Assembly (NCBI RefSeq): GCF_028864145.1
Contig: NZ_JARBHJ010000017.1
Location: 1 to 45,454, forward strand
Length of the DNA: 45,454 nucleotides
Origin: Actinotignum schaalii
GTDB taxonomy: Bacteria; Actinomycetota; Actinomycetes; Actinomycetales; Actinomycetaceae
Reading direction: 5' to 3'
Shown here: in pieces, positions 34,494 through 42,999 of the stretch
How positions within the stretch are numbered: position 1 is the stretch's first letter
Layout: each line of letters opens with the position of its first letter
Notes under the pieces: model-generated
The model's database searches: none
The model's input: the letters and a program-made list of their open reading frames with translations, nothing else
What the model was told of the DNA's origin: nothing
Position numbers and translations under genes: made by a program

Positions 34494-35813
34494 GTGCTGA
34501 GGAGCTTTACTGTCAAGAATTTTGCTTCGTTTAGGGATGAGGCAACGTTAGATTTACAAGCCACCAGGGAGCGGCAGCATTCGGAAACGCTGATGCATTT
34601 TCAACGTGCCCGGTGGCTTCCACTCACCATGATTTTCGGCCCGAACGCCTCGGGGAAATCGGCCTTAGTCCGTGCTTTCAAGGCGCTCCGCGGGCTTATT
34701 TCGGTTCGGCAGGATACCCGCGAACCGCTCACTCCACACGCTTTTGGGGAGCATGCCAAGCTGCCGTGTGAATTTACGATTGAATACTCGGTTCCGGTGG
34801 GTGGACGTGAGAAAATCGCGCGGTATCACGTGGCTGCAACGAATGCACGTGTGGTAAAAGAGTCTCTTCATCAGGTTCTTTTCGATGGCAGCCTCGATCT
34901 GGTTTTTGAACGGAGTAACCCGCAGGGGTACCCCGCGTCTTCCGTTACGTTTGGGGAGAAGTATTGCGGGGATGACGTGCTGCTTTCCTTCGGGAAAACG
35001 GTGTATCAGAGTACGTCGCTTTTGGGAGTAATCGGGCGTGATGATCGTGCACCGGCTTTCATCCAGGCGGCCTTTCGGTGGTTCTTCGATACTTTGCAGA
35101 TCGTCGAGCCGGATTCCCAATACATACCTTTACTTGGCAATCTTGACAGTGATTCTGCGTTCCGTGGATCTATTTCTGCGGTACTTTCTCAAAGTGACAC
35201 CGGAATTCAATCGCTCTTCACGCAGGAAGTGGATCTATCGCGGGTTCCTTTCACGCCGAAAGAGCTCATGGAGATTATGGAGATCGTCGCTGGTGGTAGG
35301 GATGTTCTCGCTTCGGCGTATAAAGAGCGATATCTCTTTACGCAGAAAGAAGACTCACCGGAAGAGATGACGGTGAGGGCTCTAAAAACTCTGCATGCTG
35401 AGGGCGTCACTTTCGACATTCTCGAGGAGTCGGACGGCACCCAGAGGTTCATTGACCTCCTCCCGATGCTTCTTGATTTGCAGACACCGGGCGTTCGCCG
35501 TGTTTATGTGGTGGATGAGTTGGAACGCTCGCTTCACCCCGCGTTGACCCGGCTTTTGGTGGAACGCTATTTGGAGGGGTGCTCCAAGGATACGCACACG
35601 CAGCTGATTTTTACGACGCATGAAACGGAGCTACTCGATCAGGAATTGATTCGCCGGGATGAGGTGTGGCTGACGGAAAAGGTCGACGGCGCAGGCCAAG
35701 CATCCGAGCTCGTGGCGCTTTCTGACTATGCGCCGCAGGAGCTGCGCAAGGGGATGTCTTTGCGGGATGTCTATCTGAGTGGCCGCGTCGGAGCGCTTCC
35801 TAGAAAGATTTAG
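34494..35813 (+). CDS. AAA family ATPase (AAA_15/21; AbiLi/RloA-like)
   Basis: 439 aa from a GTG following AGGGGGTGAG. The ABC-type ATPase begins SFTVKNFASFRDEATLDL with Walker A GPNASGKSAL near residues 49-58, an insertion of about 250 residues, a signature-like SDGTQRFIDLLPMLLDL near 312, Walker B VYVVDELERSLHP near 338 and an H-loop TTHETELLDQE. This architecture is typical of ATPases paired with an effector in abortive-infection systems (AbiL, PARIS, retron and OLD-like). The next gene, nine bases on, encodes an RloB-like protein, which supports an AbiL-like operon. The trigger is unknown. Confidence 0.88.
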   Translation: MLRSFTVKNFASFRDEATLDLQATRERQHSETLMHFQRARWLPLTMIFGPNASGKSALVRAFKALRGLISVRQDTREPLTPHAFGEHAKLPCEFTIEYSVPVGGREKIARYHVAATNARVVKESLHQVLFDGSLDLVFERSNPQGYPASSVTFGEKYCGDDVLLSFGKTVYQSTSLLGVIGRDDRAPAFIQAAFRWFFDTLQIVEPDSQYIPLLGNLDSDSAFRGSISAVLSQSDTGIQSLFTQEVDLSRVPFTPKELMEIMEIVAGGRDVLASAYKERYLFTQKEDSPEEMTVRALKTLHAEGVTFDILEESDGTQRFIDLLPMLLDLQTPGVRRVYVVDELERSLHPALTRLLVERYLEGCSKDTHTQLIFTTHETELLDQELIRRDEVWLTEKVDGAGQASELVALSDYAPQELRKGMSLRDVYLSGRVGALPRKI

Positions 35814-35822
35814 GAGCGGAAG

Positions 35823-36440
35823 ATGGCGCGGAAACGAAATCAGCGGCCTGTCCGCAAACACCGTAAGCGAGTTGTCGTTGCCTCTGAGGGTGCTACCGAG
35901 CGCCTATATATTGCGTCGCTCATTGCCGCTGATCGTTCCCTCGCGTACACGCCTGTATCGGTCGGTAAACAGGGTTCTGTTAAACAGCTGTTGCGGAAAA
36001 TGCGCGGGGAGCTTCAGAAGTATCCGCTGGAAAAAGGGGAGCATGCCTGGATCATCCTGGATGGCGATACGCTTGATTCTTCAGGGTGGGACATGCTCTC
36101 AGAGTGGATGAACGGGCACGCGAATCACCACGTGCTCGTCTCGAACCCATGCTTCGAAACGTGGCTGACTCTCCATTTTGATCCTCACCCCAGGGCTAAG
36201 ACAGCGGCGCAGGCACTCGACGAGGTGCGGAAGTATGTACCCACATATAGCAAGGGTCAGGCAATCAAGGCGGTGCAGGACACGCTTCGCCCGCTACTCG
36301 CGGATGCGGTTCGTAACGCGCAAACCCGGGAGCAAACGACACGCGCTCCCGGGGTGTCTCTTTACGAACAGCTGGGATGCTCGCAGATCTACGAATTTAT
36401 CGTCGCCTACGAAATTATCGCGGCTTCCGAAGGTCCATGA
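35823..36440 (+). CDS. RloB-like protein (AbiLii-like effector)
   Basis: 205 aa. It carries the RloB/AbiLii pattern: VVVASEGATERLYI near residues 15-30, the acidic pair in WIILDGDTLD near 80, and SNPCFETWLTLHF near 107-120. The spacing of Glu and D-x-D is TOPRIM-like, so a metal-dependent nuclease is plausible, as in the DUF4435 partner of PARIS. Its AGGAG ribosome site overlaps the stop of the ATPase gene. The last 26 bp overlap, tail to tail, the end of the HTH gene on the other strand. Confidence 0.85.
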   Translation: MARKRNQRPVRKHRKRVVVASEGATERLYIASLIAADRSLAYTPVSVGKQGSVKQLLRKMRGELQKYPLEKGEHAWIILDGDTLDSSGWDMLSEWMNGHANHHVLVSNPCFETWLTLHFDPHPRAKTAAQALDEVRKYVPTYSKGQAIKAVQDTLRPLLADAVRNAQTREQTTRAPGVSLYEQLGCSQIYEFIVAYEIIAASEGP

Positions 36441-36762
36441 CGGTCGGAGTAGTCCATTCCGCCCTAATGCCGGGTTCTGCTTCTAAGGCACGTGCCAGCG
36501 CCGCCACATAATAATTTCGAGGGAATTCCTCTCCGTCTTCTCGTGGCATTGTTATAACCGCATCGCACGATATGAATCGTTGTGCGATGCGGCCGTGATC
36601 GCGCGCTAACTCTAACAGTTCACACGCGATGCCGTCAGGGATTCTTGAACGTGCTTTTTCCCAGGCACGTAGGGTTCGCGGATCTACATCTAAAATGCGT
36701 GCAAGCTGCGTTGTGGAAAGTCCCAGCAAGTGTCGATAAGCCATGAAGACGGGCGCGTCCAT
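36415..36762 (-). CDS. HTH regulator, Aca2/YdiL-like
   Basis: 115 aa. The N-terminus YRHLLGLSTTQLARILDVDP, continuing RTLRAWEKARSRIPDGIA, is a helix-turn-helix of the type found in DUF1870/YdiL and Aca2 proteins; the rest has the RNYYVAALARALEA end of that family. Such proteins repress their own operon by binding an inverted repeat near the -10. That arrangement is seen here (36780-36801). The coding region ends inside the 3' end of the RloB gene. It may be a stand-alone regulator of the defence block or an antitoxin-type partner. Confidence 0.68.
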   Translation of the reverse strand: MDAPVFMAYRHLLGLSTTQLARILDVDPRTLRAWEKARSRIPDGIACELLELARDHGRIAQRFISCDAVITMPREDGEEFPRNYYVAALARALEAEPGIRAEWTTPTVMDLRKPR

Positions 36763-36902: not shown

Positions 36903-38129
36903 TCACCCATTCTTGATTTCCAAGAAACTCTCGCTTCCCTTGTCATAGCGGTACCGGGTGTTTTCCCCCTTTTGAATGAGCTCAACGGCGGTGGCGATGG
37001 CTTCGCGCGGGACGATGAACCATTCGCTCGGGTCGTAGTTTTTGCCCTCGCTATCGATTTGCGAGAGGGATACTTTTACGTCCGCGAAGATCTGGTGGAG
37101 CAGGTGCTCTAGTTTTGCAGCATTGACGTCGTAAGTTACGTACGTGTCTACGATTTCGACGGGTGCCATGAGGTAGGTGGGTGATTGTTCGGCGCCAGCG
37201 ATGCGCTTTTCTACCGGCCCACGCGAGAACCCTATCTTGTGGAGGTTGCGCAGGCTGGAGATTTGCGGATCTGTGGAGAGGGAACGCAGCACATAGATCC
37301 ACCCGGTTGGAGTTTCGTCCGGGTTCTCTTCCTCGTCAGCTGCGATAGCAGCATCGCTCCCTTGCTGAAGATCAAGGGCGGCTGACTGCGGTTCGACGAT
37401 AATCCGACCATCTTTTCCGAGCGCGGTAGCTAGGGACTGCCGGTAGAGTGCAGATTCTGTACCGTTTTCAAAGATGACACGGAGCCGTTGCCGGGTCCGG
37501 AGCTCGCCACCAGTGTGGTATTTCTGGTCAGCTCCTTGAGCGGCAACGAAGCCCATCACTCCGCCGAGCACGAAGTAGAGCCCTTCTTGTACAGCACTGA
37601 TGCCCGGGAAAGAACGTTGTTCGGCTGCGCCGGAACGCAGCTGGGCATGCTTAGCTTTGAAAAGTGGTTCGAACTGCTCGAAATCTCTGGCTTTTTCGCG
37701 TTTCGCAACTGATTCCGGCGTGGCGATAGTCCGCGGAGGCGCAGCGGGGAGCCGGGACACATCGGTGATCCCGTATCCGTCGTCCAGGAGGTTGAATTCA
37801 TCGGAGGCCAGAACATCGTCGATGCTCTGCGGGGCTTCTTCGCGGGTGAGCAGCCCGAATTCGGTGTCGAGGTCCTTGAGCTTTTCGAGCTTTTCGGGAT
37901 CGGCACGGATTCCCTCCAGGCGCGCCCCGAGTTTACGCTCCCCGATAGCGCGGGTGTGGGGGTCAGGTTCGCGCCCTTCTTTGGCCCGGAAATCCACGAT
38001 TTCCAGGAAGGCGCGTTCTAGCCGGTCTTCGCTGGTGAAACGCCGCGGGGCAGGAGGTGCGTCAAGTAGCCCTTCGGTATCGGAGGCGAGGATCTTCGCG
38101 AATTCTGCTTCAAAATCGAAATCAGCCAT
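36903..38129 (-). CDS. GIY-YIG nuclease family protein (MUG113/T5orf172-like)
   Basis: 408 aa. The nuclease domain is near residues 275-365: GWIYVLRSLS and LHKIGFSRGPVEKRI give the two short motifs (variants of GIY and YIG, with K-I-G) and the catalytic arginine; KLEHLLHQIFADV supplies the glutamate. The N-terminal ~100 residues are charged and contain IVDFRAKEGREPD, similar to a stretch at the end of the neighbouring helicase. The middle is unrecognised. The ATG overlaps the helicase stop by one base (TAATG), so translation is coupled. It is the probable DNA-cleaving subunit of the three-gene system. Confidence 0.8.
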   Translation of the reverse strand: MADFDFEAEFAKILASDTEGLLDAPPAPRRFTSEDRLERAFLEIVDFRAKEGREPDPHTRAIGERKLGARLEGIRADPEKLEKLKDLDTEFGLLTREEAPQSIDDVLASDEFNLLDDGYGITDVSRLPAAPPRTIATPESVAKREKARDFEQFEPLFKAKHAQLRSGAAEQRSFPGISAVQEGLYFVLGGVMGFVAAQGADQKYHTGGELRTRQRLRVIFENGTESALYRQSLATALGKDGRIIVEPQSAALDLQQGSDAAIAADEEENPDETPTGWIYVLRSLSTDPQISSLRNLHKIGFSRGPVEKRIAGAEQSPTYLMAPVEIVDTYVTYDVNAAKLEHLLHQIFADVKVSLSQIDSEGKNYDPSEWFIVPREAIATAVELIQKGENTRYRYDKGSESFLEIKNG

Positions 38130-40246
38130 TAGTTCTTATCCCCCTGGGAAGCATCGGCGCCTGCGGTACGTACCGGTACCGGAACGTCTTCGGCATGCTT
38201 GCCACCGCTGCGCACTGCCGCGGGTTCGATCGGCTCCACTCCAGCCGCAGCTTCAGCTGCCGCTTCGGCCGCCGCTTTCTCAGCATCATGCTTTGCTTTT
38301 TCACGTTGCAGGATAAGCAGGCCTTCGGCGTACATTTTCTCGGTGGGGTCGTCGCTGCGGACGTCCGGGCGGCGGCCATTGACCTTAACCCAGTCGGTGA
38401 TTGCGGGCCACATCTCCATTGCTTCTTCCGGTTTCAGGGTGATGCGGGTAGCGGCAATGGCATCTTGGATGATGCGCAGCACTGGGCTGGAGACCTGCTT
38501 GGACATCACTTCGAAGGCCTTCTGGAAGGGGTTGATAGATTCGATGAGGTCGATGTTGATCTCATCAATATCCACGAACTTGTTCCCCATTTCCACGAAA
38601 CGCCGGTCTCCCACGGTCCGTACTTCGCCGGATTTGATCACGGAGGAGACCACCACATGCTGGCGGATTTGCTCGACTTCTTTCTCAGTGATGTCCGGGT
38701 AGGTTTGGCGAATGATGCGTGGGATAAGCACCTTGTTGATGACTTCGGGTTCCGCAGCCCCGGCCGCGGCCCGCGCCACCTGGTCATCTTGCAAAATATT
38801 GGCCTTCAGGTCATCAATACCCGTGGCGATAATCTCCTTGGCGCGCTTCGTCGTGGGCTCCACCAGGCCTTTGACTTCCAGGGTGCCGGGATCCGGGGCT
38901 TCGTCTGTGTTCCGTTTGGCCCGGAAGTTGTAGTTCGGGGCAAGCACCTGTTCCATGAGCAGCGCCGCGGTAATCCCTTTCAAAACGTTATTGACGGAGA
39001 GCGTCACTTCGTTTTGGGTGGCATCCGGTTCGGCCAGCAGGTTGGTGAATTGCGCGTGGCTTTTCCCGGGGCTATCGCGGGTAACGCGCCCGATGATCTG
39101 GATGAGCTCGGTATGCGAGGCTCGGTAACCAACCGTGAGGGCGTGTTCCGCGAAAGGCCAGTCGAAACCTTCTTTCGCCATGCCGAGCGCGATGATGATA
39201 TCGGCGGCATCGCGATTCTTCGCGGCCACATCAGTCAAGTACACCAGGGTCTTAGCGCGCGCTTTCTCATCACTATCATCCACAAGATCGGCCACGCGCA
39301 GCACGGCACCGGTGTCGCGCCGCCGCACGAAGATCATGCAGTCGTCCCCGGGGAAACGCGGCTCTACCTGCGCAACTTCTTCGGGCGGAAGCACCTCGCC
39401 AATAATATCGAGGATCTTCCCGACTTCTTCGTACTTGTCCTTCGTGGATTCCCCGGAGTTCACGGAGGGGATATGCAGAATGGTTTTCTTGTCGAGATCC
39501 AGCACTTCCGCGATGGCATCGGTGTAACGGCCCTGGTAGAAGTGGTGGCCGATCCCTAGTGTTTTCAGGTATTGGTAGCCGTTGAGCTGGTCGTAATAGT
39601 TGAAAGTGACGGGCGTGAATTTCGCTTCGTCTTTCGGGTCCAGCACGGGCACGGAGTCACCACGGAAATAGGAGCCGGTCATGGCGATGATATGCGCGTC
39701 GGACTGCTCCATAATGGCATGCAGCACGGAGCCGAGCCGGTTGTTGTCCAGGTCGGCGGAGACGTGATGGAATTCGTCAATCGCGATCACGCAGCCGTTG
39801 AAATCCTCGGGTTTGGCCTGTTCGAAGGCGAAACGCAGGGTGGCGTGCGTGCAGACGAGCGTGGCATCCGGCCCTTCCAGGAAACGCAGAAATGCGGCGA
39901 CTTTCGATTCGTTGCTGCCGGGTGTGCACAGGTTGTTCGCGGGTTTGACGTCCCAGTCCGCGAAGAAGCCGTAGGTGGTGAGGTCGGTGGGCGCGAAGGA
40001 CGCACCGATGGAGCGTTCGGGTACCGCCACGATCACCTTGCGCCGGCCCTGGTTGAAGAGCTTATCGAGCGCAATAAACATGAGCGCGCGCGATTTCCCG
40101 GAAGCCGGCGGCGCCTTGATGAGCAGGTACTGGGAGGCGCGCTGTTCATAGGCACGAGCCTGCATTTCCCGCATCCCGAGCTCATCGGTGGCAACCGATT
40201 TCCCGGTTTGCGCATAGGTCACGTCCACAACGTTTTCGGTGGCCAC
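38129..40246 (-). CDS. DEAD/DEAH box (SF2) helicase
   Basis: 705 aa from a GTG with AGGGAAA upstream, two bases after the methyltransferase stop. Walker A is APPASGKSRALMFIA near residue 47, motif II is DEFHH near 157, motif III MTGSYF, and motif VI QIIGRVTRDSPGK near 389. The C-terminal region has ITDWVKVNGRRPD near 615, resembling the N-terminus of the GIY-YIG protein, then an Ala/Glu-rich tail. No nuclease motif is seen in it. It is probably the ATP-driven translocase of a restriction-type complex. Confidence 0.85.
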   Translation of the reverse strand: MATENVVDVTYAQTGKSVATDELGMREMQARAYEQRASQYLLIKAPPASGKSRALMFIALDKLFNQGRRKVIVAVPERSIGASFAPTDLTTYGFFADWDVKPANNLCTPGSNESKVAAFLRFLEGPDATLVCTHATLRFAFEQAKPEDFNGCVIAIDEFHHVSADLDNNRLGSVLHAIMEQSDAHIIAMTGSYFRGDSVPVLDPKDEAKFTPVTFNYYDQLNGYQYLKTLGIGHHFYQGRYTDAIAEVLDLDKKTILHIPSVNSGESTKDKYEEVGKILDIIGEVLPPEEVAQVEPRFPGDDCMIFVRRRDTGAVLRVADLVDDSDEKARAKTLVYLTDVAAKNRDAADIIIALGMAKEGFDWPFAEHALTVGYRASHTELIQIIGRVTRDSPGKSHAQFTNLLAEPDATQNEVTLSVNNVLKGITAALLMEQVLAPNYNFRAKRNTDEAPDPGTLEVKGLVEPTTKRAKEIIATGIDDLKANILQDDQVARAAAGAAEPEVINKVLIPRIIRQTYPDITEKEVEQIRQHVVVSSVIKSGEVRTVGDRRFVEMGNKFVDIDEINIDLIESINPFQKAFEVMSKQVSSPVLRIIQDAIAATRITLKPEEAMEMWPAITDWVKVNGRRPDVRSDDPTEKMYAEGLLILQREKAKHDAEKAAAEAAAEAAAGVEPIEPAAVRSGGKHAEDVPVPVRTAGADASQGDKN

Positions 40247-40248
40247 GG

Positions 40249-42999
40249 CTATTTCCCTTCTGCTTCGATCATCTGCTGATACTTCGCGAATAGCACCGCG
40301 AGGCGTTCCTCATCGGATGCGAACGGGGTGCTCTTATAAAGTCTATCGACGGCTTCGTCATTTTTTTCGTGTGCTTCGCGGAGGTTGCGTGGCATGAGGT
40401 CTGGGTCGTAGAGCTCGGCTAAGGTTTTTTCGCAGTGGTATTCGCGTACATCGAGTACGCGTAGCGCGCGTTTCGTGAGTTCTTCTTTCGACGACGCCGA
40501 TAACTCTGGCACGGGAAAAGTGTTATAAACCAAGGTATTCGAGTACCGGAAGTCGGTTTTCATCTTCCCGCCAACAGCGCGTAGCCAGGCCATGTGCATT
40601 TTCGAGGTCAGCAAGGCGAACAGCCACGGCTCAGCATCGTAAACTGCAAATGCAAGGTTAGAGATAACTGTGTCAGGATCGAGATAACCAATAGGAACGT
40701 ATTGTCGGCGTTCGGAAGAAACTGCCGGTACGATAATCGAATCGGTGGGCTTGTAGCGGACTTCCCCAAATCGCCAAGGGATGGCAGAAAACTCTTGGGT
40801 CTGCTTCTTCGTACTGGCCGAACGCATGGCGGAAACGTGCTCCAGGCGCCGCTTTATTTCTGGAATCTTGGCTGCTTCGTGCCGGTTTTCCTCCGTGAGC
40901 CACAGGCAGTAGCGGTCTTTCCCATTGATGTAATCATCAGCGCCCACGAACTGCTTAATTACTTCGGAAAGCTCAGGATAGCTGGTAAGAAGATCTTCTG
41001 CCTCTTGAGCAGAAAGAATGAGGTTACCCCCGTCGGTCGGTTGGGAGCCTTTGGTCATTTTTGGAAGAGTCGATGATAGAGCCTTACCTTGCGCTGTTAC
41101 GAAAGTATCCTCTCCGGAAATGAGGTAGGCGTTAATATTTTCCACCGTGGTTTGGACGAGGTCCGTGAAGAGGTATTTCGTCTCGGAGGATTCATTGCGC
41201 AGGCTAATAACTGCCACGGTCACACCCGCATTATGGGAGGCATTATTGCTCCACTTGAAGGAGGTGTAGGCGTAGCCAATCTCTATACCGCCCGTGAAAA
41301 CATGGGGGTGGAGCAGGGCAACCTGCTCGCCCTGGGTAATGGAATTCGTGGTCACGAAAGAGAGCTTGGCCCGGCTGCCGCGAATGTAATTGGCACCCTT
41401 AATGAACCACAGGGAAACATAATCGAGCTTCTTAGGATACTTCTCAGTGCCAAAAACAAAGTGAAAATCTTGTTTCTGGGAGGATATTTGGCCCGCCGAA
41501 CCTACATAGGGTGGGTTTCCGATTAAATAAATTTCGTCGGTGCCGTTGTTGGGGCAGACTTCGTTCCAGTCGAGGCGGGTGGCGTTGCCGTGCACGATGT
41601 GCCCGGTTTCCTTAAGTGGAATGAGGGGAATATCCAGGCCGAATTTGGCTTTGAACTCCTGGTTCATCTGGTGTTTGGCGATCCAGAGTGAAAGGATAGC
41701 CATCTCCACGGAGATATCATCAATTTCGATGCCGTAGAAGTTCTCAATATTGATCACCGAGGAGCCAAAGCCCAGGGTGGCAGCGCCGAGCTTCTCTTCC
41801 TCACCCATGCCGAGCAGGCCCCAGCGGCCCGCCGAGGAAAGAGAATCGATGCGATCCAGGATTGCGTGTTCGAGCTTGCGCAATTCCTTATATGCGATAA
41901 CTAAAAAGTTGCCACTGCCGCTGGCCGGATCAAAAAGCTTGATTTTTGAAATTCTTGTGAGGAGTTTCTTGAGTCGCGGTACCGATTCGCAGGCTTTGTC
42001 ATATTCGTTCCAGAGTTCATCCAAGAAGAGCGGTTTGATGGTTTTGAGGATATTGGGGACCGAGGTGTAGTGCTGGCCCAGATTAGCGCGCTGATCCTTA
42101 TCTACCACTGCCTGGAACATGGAGCCGAAAATATCCGGGTTGATTTCCGACCAATCCAGGGTGCCGAGCTCCAGGAGCGAATCGCGCGCGTGCTTGGTGA
42201 ATTGGGGGACTGTCAAGGAGGCGGCGTCGTCGTTATTAATGCGGAAAAGGCGACCATTGACGTAGGGGAAGCTCTGCAAGTAGACGGGTTTATCGGACGT
42301 GTTCGGGGTGTCCAGCGCGTGGAAAAGTGCGGTGAGGAATGCGGCGGTGTCGGAGCCGTCGCGCTGGGTGTGTGAGCCGACCGCGCTGGTGAACTGGCCT
42401 TTTGCGAAGATGCCGGTATCCTCCGCGAAGAAACAGAAGAGGAGGCGAGTGAAGAAGATGTTGAGGCTGTGGGGAGATTTGTCCTCGTGGAAGAGGTTGG
42501 GGTTGGCGGCGAGGAGTTCGTCGTACACCTTGCTCATGTGTTCGGCGGCGCGGCGGTCCGCGTGGGTATCCGAGGAGAAGTGCTGTTTCTCCATATTCGC
42601 CCAGGGGAGGAAGAAGGTGAAATCGCTGGCGAGTTTGGCGAGGGGGATGCTGAGGGAATCGCCGGTTTTGGTATCAATTGCGGCGAGGGATTCGTAATTT
42701 GTGGCGATGACGAAGCGGGTATTGAAGCGGAGCGCGGCTTCGCTGGTTTTCATTTCCAGCGCGGCGGCCATGAGGTCACGGCTGGTTTCGGCCAGGTAGA
42801 TCTTGTTTTTCCACACGATATCGCGCTCCGGGTTCGCCGCGACGTTGAGCGAGCTGGCGGTGGTGGAACGCAGGCGGGTGACGCTGGATTTGGAGATGCC
42901 GTAAGCGAGGAGGAGGTCGAAGAAGAAATCGCGAGTGAAGGGCGCACGGGAGGTGAGTTTCTTGACGTTCTCCTCAATACTCTGGAGGGTGATGGCCAC
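40249..42999 (-). CDS. Class I SAM-dependent DNA adenine methyltransferase with built-in target recognition
   Basis: 916 aa. The SAM-binding motif I is FDPASGSGNFLV near 360 and the catalytic motif IV is IGNPPYVG near 495, indicating N6-adenine methylation. The N-terminal 180 residues (YLAETSRDLMAAALEMK, ATNYESLAAIDTKTGDSLSI) match the domain seen in large type IIG-like enzymes, but no convincing PD-(D/E)xK nuclease is visible. The C-terminal 250 residues (DDYINGKDRYCLWL, RYSNTLVYNTFPVP) are the target-recognition and exchange region of that family, so no separate S subunit is needed. It is the first gene of the operon with the helicase and GIY-YIG genes. Confidence 0.88.
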   Translation of the reverse strand: MAITLQSIEENVKKLTSRAPFTRDFFFDLLLAYGISKSSVTRLRSTTASSLNVAANPERDIVWKNKIYLAETSRDLMAAALEMKTSEAALRFNTRFVIATNYESLAAIDTKTGDSLSIPLAKLASDFTFFLPWANMEKQHFSSDTHADRRAAEHMSKVYDELLAANPNLFHEDKSPHSLNIFFTRLLFCFFAEDTGIFAKGQFTSAVGSHTQRDGSDTAAFLTALFHALDTPNTSDKPVYLQSFPYVNGRLFRINNDDAASLTVPQFTKHARDSLLELGTLDWSEINPDIFGSMFQAVVDKDQRANLGQHYTSVPNILKTIKPLFLDELWNEYDKACESVPRLKKLLTRISKIKLFDPASGSGNFLVIAYKELRKLEHAILDRIDSLSSAGRWGLLGMGEEEKLGAATLGFGSSVINIENFYGIEIDDISVEMAILSLWIAKHQMNQEFKAKFGLDIPLIPLKETGHIVHGNATRLDWNEVCPNNGTDEIYLIGNPPYVGSAGQISSQKQDFHFVFGTEKYPKKLDYVSLWFIKGANYIRGSRAKLSFVTTNSITQGEQVALLHPHVFTGGIEIGYAYTSFKWSNNASHNAGVTVAVISLRNESSETKYLFTDLVQTTVENINAYLISGEDTFVTAQGKALSSTLPKMTKGSQPTDGGNLILSAQEAEDLLTSYPELSEVIKQFVGADDYINGKDRYCLWLTEENRHEAAKIPEIKRRLEHVSAMRSASTKKQTQEFSAIPWRFGEVRYKPTDSIIVPAVSSERRQYVPIGYLDPDTVISNLAFAVYDAEPWLFALLTSKMHMAWLRAVGGKMKTDFRYSNTLVYNTFPVPELSASSKEELTKRALRVLDVREYHCEKTLAELYDPDLMPRNLREAHEKNDEAVDRLYKSTPFASDEERLAVLFAKYQQMIEAEGK

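Follow-up and report, generated by a model that had tools for sequence, protein, structure and literature searches.

Three tightly packed genes in a 45,454-nucleotide (nt) stretch of Actinotignum schaalii DNA (the window) raise the question of whether they form a restriction system and whether that system is of a new kind. An initial annotation, made from the sequence alone, had read them as an operon of an adenine methyltransferase with internal target recognition, a superfamily 2 (SF2) helicase and a GIY-YIG nuclease, and had proposed a candidate new restriction-type system. Our analysis suggests that the trio is probably a restriction-modification operon. The claim of novelty did not survive: the same trio is in print as the dnmA-yeeB-yeeC cluster of Bacillus subtilis, described in papers of 2020 and 2023 (PMC7261158, PMC9973331), so the reading as a new system was rejected and a system with the same three families is, in substance, already known. 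Judging from its sequence, the window trio appears to be a new member of this cluster, which has gene names but no formal system name in the cited accounts.

Gene layout

Open reading frame (ORF) calling placed the three genes on the minus strand, in the order methyltransferase, helicase, GIY-YIG protein, with all three frames open (lengths in amino acids, aa):

40249..42999, minus strand: DnmA-type (MmeI-family) adenine DNA methyltransferase with internal target-recognition domain (916 aa, GTG start; Pfam, MmeI 5hr4)
38129..40246, minus strand: YeeB-type SF2 helicase/ATPase (705 aa, GTG start; Pfam DEAD, ResIII)
36903..38129, minus strand: YeeC-type protein with a C-terminal GIY-YIG (T5orf172/MUG113) nuclease domain (408 aa, ATG start; Pfam)

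The methyltransferase/helicase junction reads TAG cc GTG, a 2-nt gap, and the helicase/GIY-YIG junction reads TAATG, both as the initial annotation had described.

The methyltransferase is an MmeI homolog without its nuclease site

The Pfam families agreed with the three assignments. The methyltransferase matched all five MmeI domains (MmeI_N, MmeI_hel, MmeI_Mtase, MmeI_TRD and MmeI_C) as well as Eco57I, with the target-recognition domain (TRD; PF20466) at residues 629-833, and its alignment with crystallized MmeI (5hr4) was near full-length (E=1.4e-170). The type IIG model of PADLOC (library version 2023) also matched strongly (4.5e-292). In MmeI the catalytic residues are D70, E80 and K82, and alanine at any one of them abolishes cutting (PMC4833311). 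In the PD-(D/E)xK site of the window protein, the 5hr4 alignment shows that the D is kept while E80 is replaced by A and K82 by T (MmeI numbering), so this methyltransferase should not cut by itself. The MmeI identity and the lost nuclease site were absent from the initial annotation, as were an adjoining RloA/RloB (AbiL) pair and a second methyltransferase copy, both described below.

The trio is conserved and widespread

Conserved trio neighborhoods, which the initial annotation had proposed to look for, were readily found. A helicase scan of the genome_contigs collection gave at least 589 stretches, 588 of them encoding a relative, and the best 80 loci were kept as the helicase-anchored set. 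A GIY-YIG relative lay beside the helicase in 80 of the 80 loci (partial at a contig end in L053 and L076), so the arrangement is not due to chance. The methyltransferase was present in 73, upstream on the same strand in 72 and downstream in one (L067); it was not found in the remaining 7, whose available sequence extends no more than 2,407 bases beyond the helicase on that side. Hosts included actinobacteria, Bacteroidetes, proteobacteria, bacilli, Sulfurovum-type bacteria, planctomycetes, candidate phyla and one archaeon, and single placements may be wrong because many hosts are metagenome bins. Helicase relatives also occurred in 263 of 72,556 plasmid records, with 152 covering at least 80% of the query and 118 records typed conjugative. 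The gene is uncommon in genome samples: a search of 394 genomes from the window's class at E 1e-20 found it in 3, one of which is the window genome. A phage origin was rejected: among 50,697 phage records the helicase query matched just 2, both partially, and the helicase of a second trio subtype likewise gave 2 partial matches.

That second subtype was seen in L109, L126, L127, L131, L132, L134, L135 and L187-L189. It carries an N-terminal VLQxNN/HIHIA-like motif, and its helicase and GIY-YIG proteins are more divergent.

Helicase motifs I, II and III were identical in 64 of 64 aligned sequences, and GIY-YIG residues G276, Y279, K298, G300, R309, E341 and H345 in 76 of 76; both proteins therefore look active. 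In the PADLOC profile search suggested by the initial annotation, the strong type IIG match was accompanied by weak matches of the helicase to PbeA (4.4e-8) and of the GIY-YIG protein to PDC-S57 (2.5e-5). No NCBIfam family reached its cut-off for any of the three proteins. Sequence searches of the PDB returned no match, either with the helicase (E up to 0.01) or with the GIY-YIG protein (E up to 1). Upstream of its nuclease domain the latter has an N-terminal region of ~270 residues for which the Pfam scan gave no family above cut-off. In L057, L085, L087, L152 and L180 the GIY-YIG gene is divided into an ORF of ~90 aa and one of ~300-400 aa, which suggests that the N-terminal part may be a separable subunit.

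Loss of the nuclease motif tracks the helicase

In a separate test, the methyltransferase was searched in samples of four classes and 94 loci with MmeI homologs were fetched. The helicase was present in 25 of them, of which 24 also had the GIY-YIG gene; the exception, L128, breaks off within the helicase. The D/E/K residues were kept in 0 of 22 readable homologs beside a helicase versus 58 of 65 without one, with a Fisher p of 6.9e-15 that overstates the case because related sequences are treated as independent. "Readable" was defined by cut-offs set in the present analysis (7 of the 94 were unreadable). The first count took L130, whose N-terminus is missing, as readable and L133 as not; mapping to the window protein reversed both and again gave 0 of 22 with D/E/K, with no compared pair of methyltransferases at least 90% identical. 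Left out of the count were fragmentary matches in 8 genomes (G629 second copy, G473, G605, G656, G821, G913, G917 and G1027), as were several motif-less proteins beside a helicase, namely those of the window trio and of the trios in G273, G376 and the centre genomes G394-G396. Among the readable methyltransferases of the helicase-anchored set, 0 of 65 kept D/E/K.

Motif loss is not exclusive to the trio, and this, like the inflated p value, tells against too firm a conclusion: 7 of the 65 readable helicase-less proteins also lack D/E/K, namely L108 (at a contig end), L191, L193, L197, L198, L199 and L201. The last six are all from the window's class and differ at the N-terminus; the scanned subset (L108, L191, L193, L197, L198 and L199, not L201) matched the same PADLOC type IIG model. 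The second methyltransferase of the window genome, also without both D/E/K and a helicase, was left out, and its inclusion would make the count 58 of 66. The association between motif loss and helicase is thus strong but one-sided.

Of the 87 mapped trio proteins, 2 fitted a looser motif pattern. In L033 the matching residues fall elsewhere than in the site; in L036 the spacing between D and ExK is three residues too long (the aligned columns read D, R, gap). A replacement pattern of approximately E-[VIL]-x-x-K-[KN]-x-[LV]-x-[FY]-[KR] is common to most window-type proteins, and the second subtype has one of approximately GVLQxNNIHIA. Such common patterns indicate that loss of the nuclease site was not random decay.

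A proposed mechanism and its alternatives

The initial annotation had envisaged methylation of self DNA and ATP-driven translocation to a GIY-YIG cut on unmodified DNA. This logic is plausible given the families, the motif loss and the intact helicase and GIY-YIG residues, and we judge methyltransferase-directed, ATP-dependent GIY-YIG cleavage of unmodified DNA to be the best mechanism and a likely one. Domain content, motif loss, motif retention and co-occurrence are the observations that point to it. By homology, and as reported for B. subtilis DnmA (PMC7261158), the MmeI-type protein would use its TRD to recognize a short non-palindromic site, in which it would methylate one adenine. With its own PD-(D/E)xK site gone, it would not cut alone. 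At unmethylated sites it might instead recruit or license the helicase, which would use ATP to translocate or remodel, and the GIY-YIG protein would then cut; the cut, the ATP coupling and this order of events are what we infer. In such a division of labor the methyltransferase would correspond to HsdM plus HsdS, and the helicase plus GIY-YIG protein to HsdR.

Co-variation of the three proteins favors this mechanism: their pairwise distance matrices correlate (r 0.90, 0.88 and 0.84 over 85 loci, against maxima of 0.15, 0.11 and 0.17 in 500 shuffles), a correlation that could partly reflect shared descent. Published data from B. subtilis weigh against it. Deletion of dnmA there left plasmid transformation unchanged (PMC7261158), and phage assays showed no effect when dnmA, yeeB or yeeC was deleted singly (PMC9973331). 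The latter paper also cites work on Vibrio crassostreae, in which mutants lacking dnmA or yeeB became more sensitive to some phages; restriction activity may vary between cluster members.

The B. subtilis mutants without a restriction or phage phenotype are consistent with a decayed or regulatory remnant, as has been proposed for that organism, in which only the methyltransferase still serves, in an epigenetic role, and restriction by the helicase and nuclease has been lost. The window genome itself (98.66% complete) carries another DnmA-type methyltransferase on contig 17, which looks orphan because no full-length helicase match and no match to the GIY-YIG profile were found in the genome outside the window trio. 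Yet the window frames are open, neither the helicase nor the GIY-YIG protein has lost active-site residues, and residues invariant over many phyla are not a pattern of decay, so that we consider a remnant improbable here.

We give somewhat less credence still to a helicase and GIY-YIG protein that act without the methyltransferase as guide. In the CglI and NgoAVII systems the nuclease itself binds the site (PMC4267653), and the N-terminal region of the GIY-YIG protein might likewise read one, much as the B3 domain does in R.CglI and R.NgoAVII. The ~270 residues without an assigned family leave room for such a function.

A block of phage DNA replication in the manner of BREX, with the GIY-YIG protein nicking or signaling in place of cleavage, is very unlikely: in BREX, too, an adenine methyltransferase (PglX) works with ATPases, and weak PglX model matches were obtained (PADLOC and NCBIfam scans), but PglZ had no match in the genome and the invariant nuclease active site suggests cutting.

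If methyltransferase-directed cleavage by the trio does take place, the operon would be a natural case of a fused restriction enzyme exchanging its cutter for a motor-nuclease pair, would bring the partly decodable target code of MmeI to many hosts, and could explain barriers to DNA uptake that annotation has missed. The family is widespread in bacteria and plasmids but has received little study, and PADLOC and NCBIfam gave only weak matches for the helicase and nuclease.

Predicted targets and the second methyltransferase

The contig-17 methyltransferase (L106:1737-4487) is 79% identical to the window protein, has a degenerate nuclease motif of the same kind and adjoins a PDC-S06 ATPase that may be RloC-like. 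At the TRD contacts corresponding to MmeI 751/773/774/806/808/810, the window protein has A, N, L, K, D and R and the contig-17 copy E, N, K, G, S and S. Under published residue-to-base rules (PMC4833311), L774/R810 and K806/D808 of the window TRD predict G at site positions 4 and 6, giving 5'-NNNGAG-3' with the A modified, while the contig-17 copy is predicted to read NNCCAN. The ending predicted for the window enzyme is that of GACGAG, the site methylated by B. subtilis DnmA (PMC7261158). Among 85 trio loci, 56 different combinations of TRD contacts were counted.

The methyltransferase/helicase junction as a cargo site

Co-location with other defense genes, another check that the initial annotation had named, was found both inside and beside the trio. 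Of 97 loci, 35 had a gap of 400 nt or more between methyltransferase and helicase (23 of the 72 anchored loci and 12 of the 25 from the separate sample). One or more same-strand ORFs of at least 80 aa lay in 33 of these wide gaps, all but those of L049 and L127. The helicase and GIY-YIG genes, by contrast, were never more than 95 nt apart in the 80 anchored loci, and their gap did not exceed 665 nt in the 24 loci of the separate sample. When 20 of the 61 listed junction ORFs were run against PADLOC, 18 matched a model at 1e-5, five of them weakly (L059, L043, L081 and L139, one cluster with an AlbA_2/HATPase member, and L084); this result is partly circular because many matched models are candidate (PDC) families. 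The cargo includes RhuM (PDC-S05), YhcG (PDC-S02), Bro-N (PDC-S13), AAA_13 (PDC-S06) and a Fic protein, and in one locus a complete Gabija pair (GajA, GajB) lies between methyltransferase and helicase (L032:4259-7949). The window trio has no cargo but adjoins the RloA/RloB pair. A literature search with narrow terms in a partial library found nothing on an internal cargo site by title or abstract.

A further-reaching possibility, which we offer tentatively, is that the trio is a distinct ATP-dependent restriction class, in which an MmeI-type enzyme ceded its nuclease to a helicase and GIY-YIG pair, and that it doubles as a defense chassis. The junction would then be a recurrent slot for same-strand back-up defense genes (Gabija, PDC-S06 ATPase, RhuM, YhcG, Fic, Schlafen-like), which a block of restriction might trigger. 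The cargo site offers a simple route to finding and testing linked defense genes.

Neighboring genes

Three further genes lie next to the trio in the window:

36415..36762, minus strand: small helix-turn-helix (HTH) protein, 140 nt downstream of the trio (HTH_3 just above cut-off, HTH_31 below)
34494..35813, plus strand: AbiLi/RloA-like AAA ATPase, outside the trio (PADLOC AbiLi 1.4e-69; AAA_21)
35823..36440, plus strand: AbiLii/RloB-like protein, outside the trio (Pfam RloB 5.8e-20; PADLOC AbiLii 1.2e-18)

The small HTH protein is a possible regulator of the trio, and its membership in the trio is uncertain. The RloA/RloB-like pair (34494-36440) is convergent with the trio; rloA and rloB also sit within a restriction/modification (R/M) region of C. 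jejuni (PMC2928727). GC content is 0.52-0.59 at 34-44.5 kilobases (kb) of the window, below most of 5-33 kb, with 1-3.5 kb and 23-24.5 kb low too. The low-GC stretch at 34-44.5 kb may mark an island.

Comparison with known systems

The initial annotation had set the trio apart from BREX, DISARM and type I systems, noting no PglZ, DUF1998 or hsdS, and this held. BREX was rejected on the absence of PglZ matches in the genome at E 0.001, and DISARM because the sole DUF1998 (now MZB) match is on contig 26, outside the window. Type I (HsdRMS) systems share the inferred logic, and the C. jejuni R/M region likewise has rloA and rloB; they differ in that the window has no HsdS, its motor and nuclease are separate, and its nuclease is GIY-YIG. 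Type I identity was rejected, with Methylase_S matches on contig 44 only and no nuclease domain fused to the window helicase in the Pfam scan.

CglI and NgoAVII, ATP-dependent systems, also have methyltransferase, nuclease and SF2 (DEAD) ATPase in separate genes (PMC4267653); the protein families differ, and a CglI-type identity was rejected. With MmeI (type IIL) the window enzyme shares near full-length homology and the five Pfam domains. It keeps only the D of D70/E80/K82 and has two extra genes beside it, and without a same-chain N-terminal PD-(D/E)xK endonuclease the type IIL identity was rejected.

The closest match is dnmA-yeeB-yeeC. According to PMC7261158, a 2009 survey of MmeI homologs had placed DnmA in a set without the nuclease motif and flanked by yeeB/yeeC-like genes, and a type I-like system had been suggested earlier for the cluster. 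Its neighborhood is conserved (PMC9973331), and in the control genome of B. subtilis our family search reported the MmeI TRD family. In Acinetobacter baumannii, the blaOXA-23 transposons Tn2006 and Tn2009 are reported to contain genes named yeeA, yeeB and yeeC (PMC9258068), which may or may not be pieces of this operon. The window trio comes from another lineage and is likened to the cluster through published descriptions of gene order, domains and motif loss; it shares with it both an MmeI homolog without the nuclease motif and, directly downstream, a helicase followed by a T5orf172/GIY-YIG protein.

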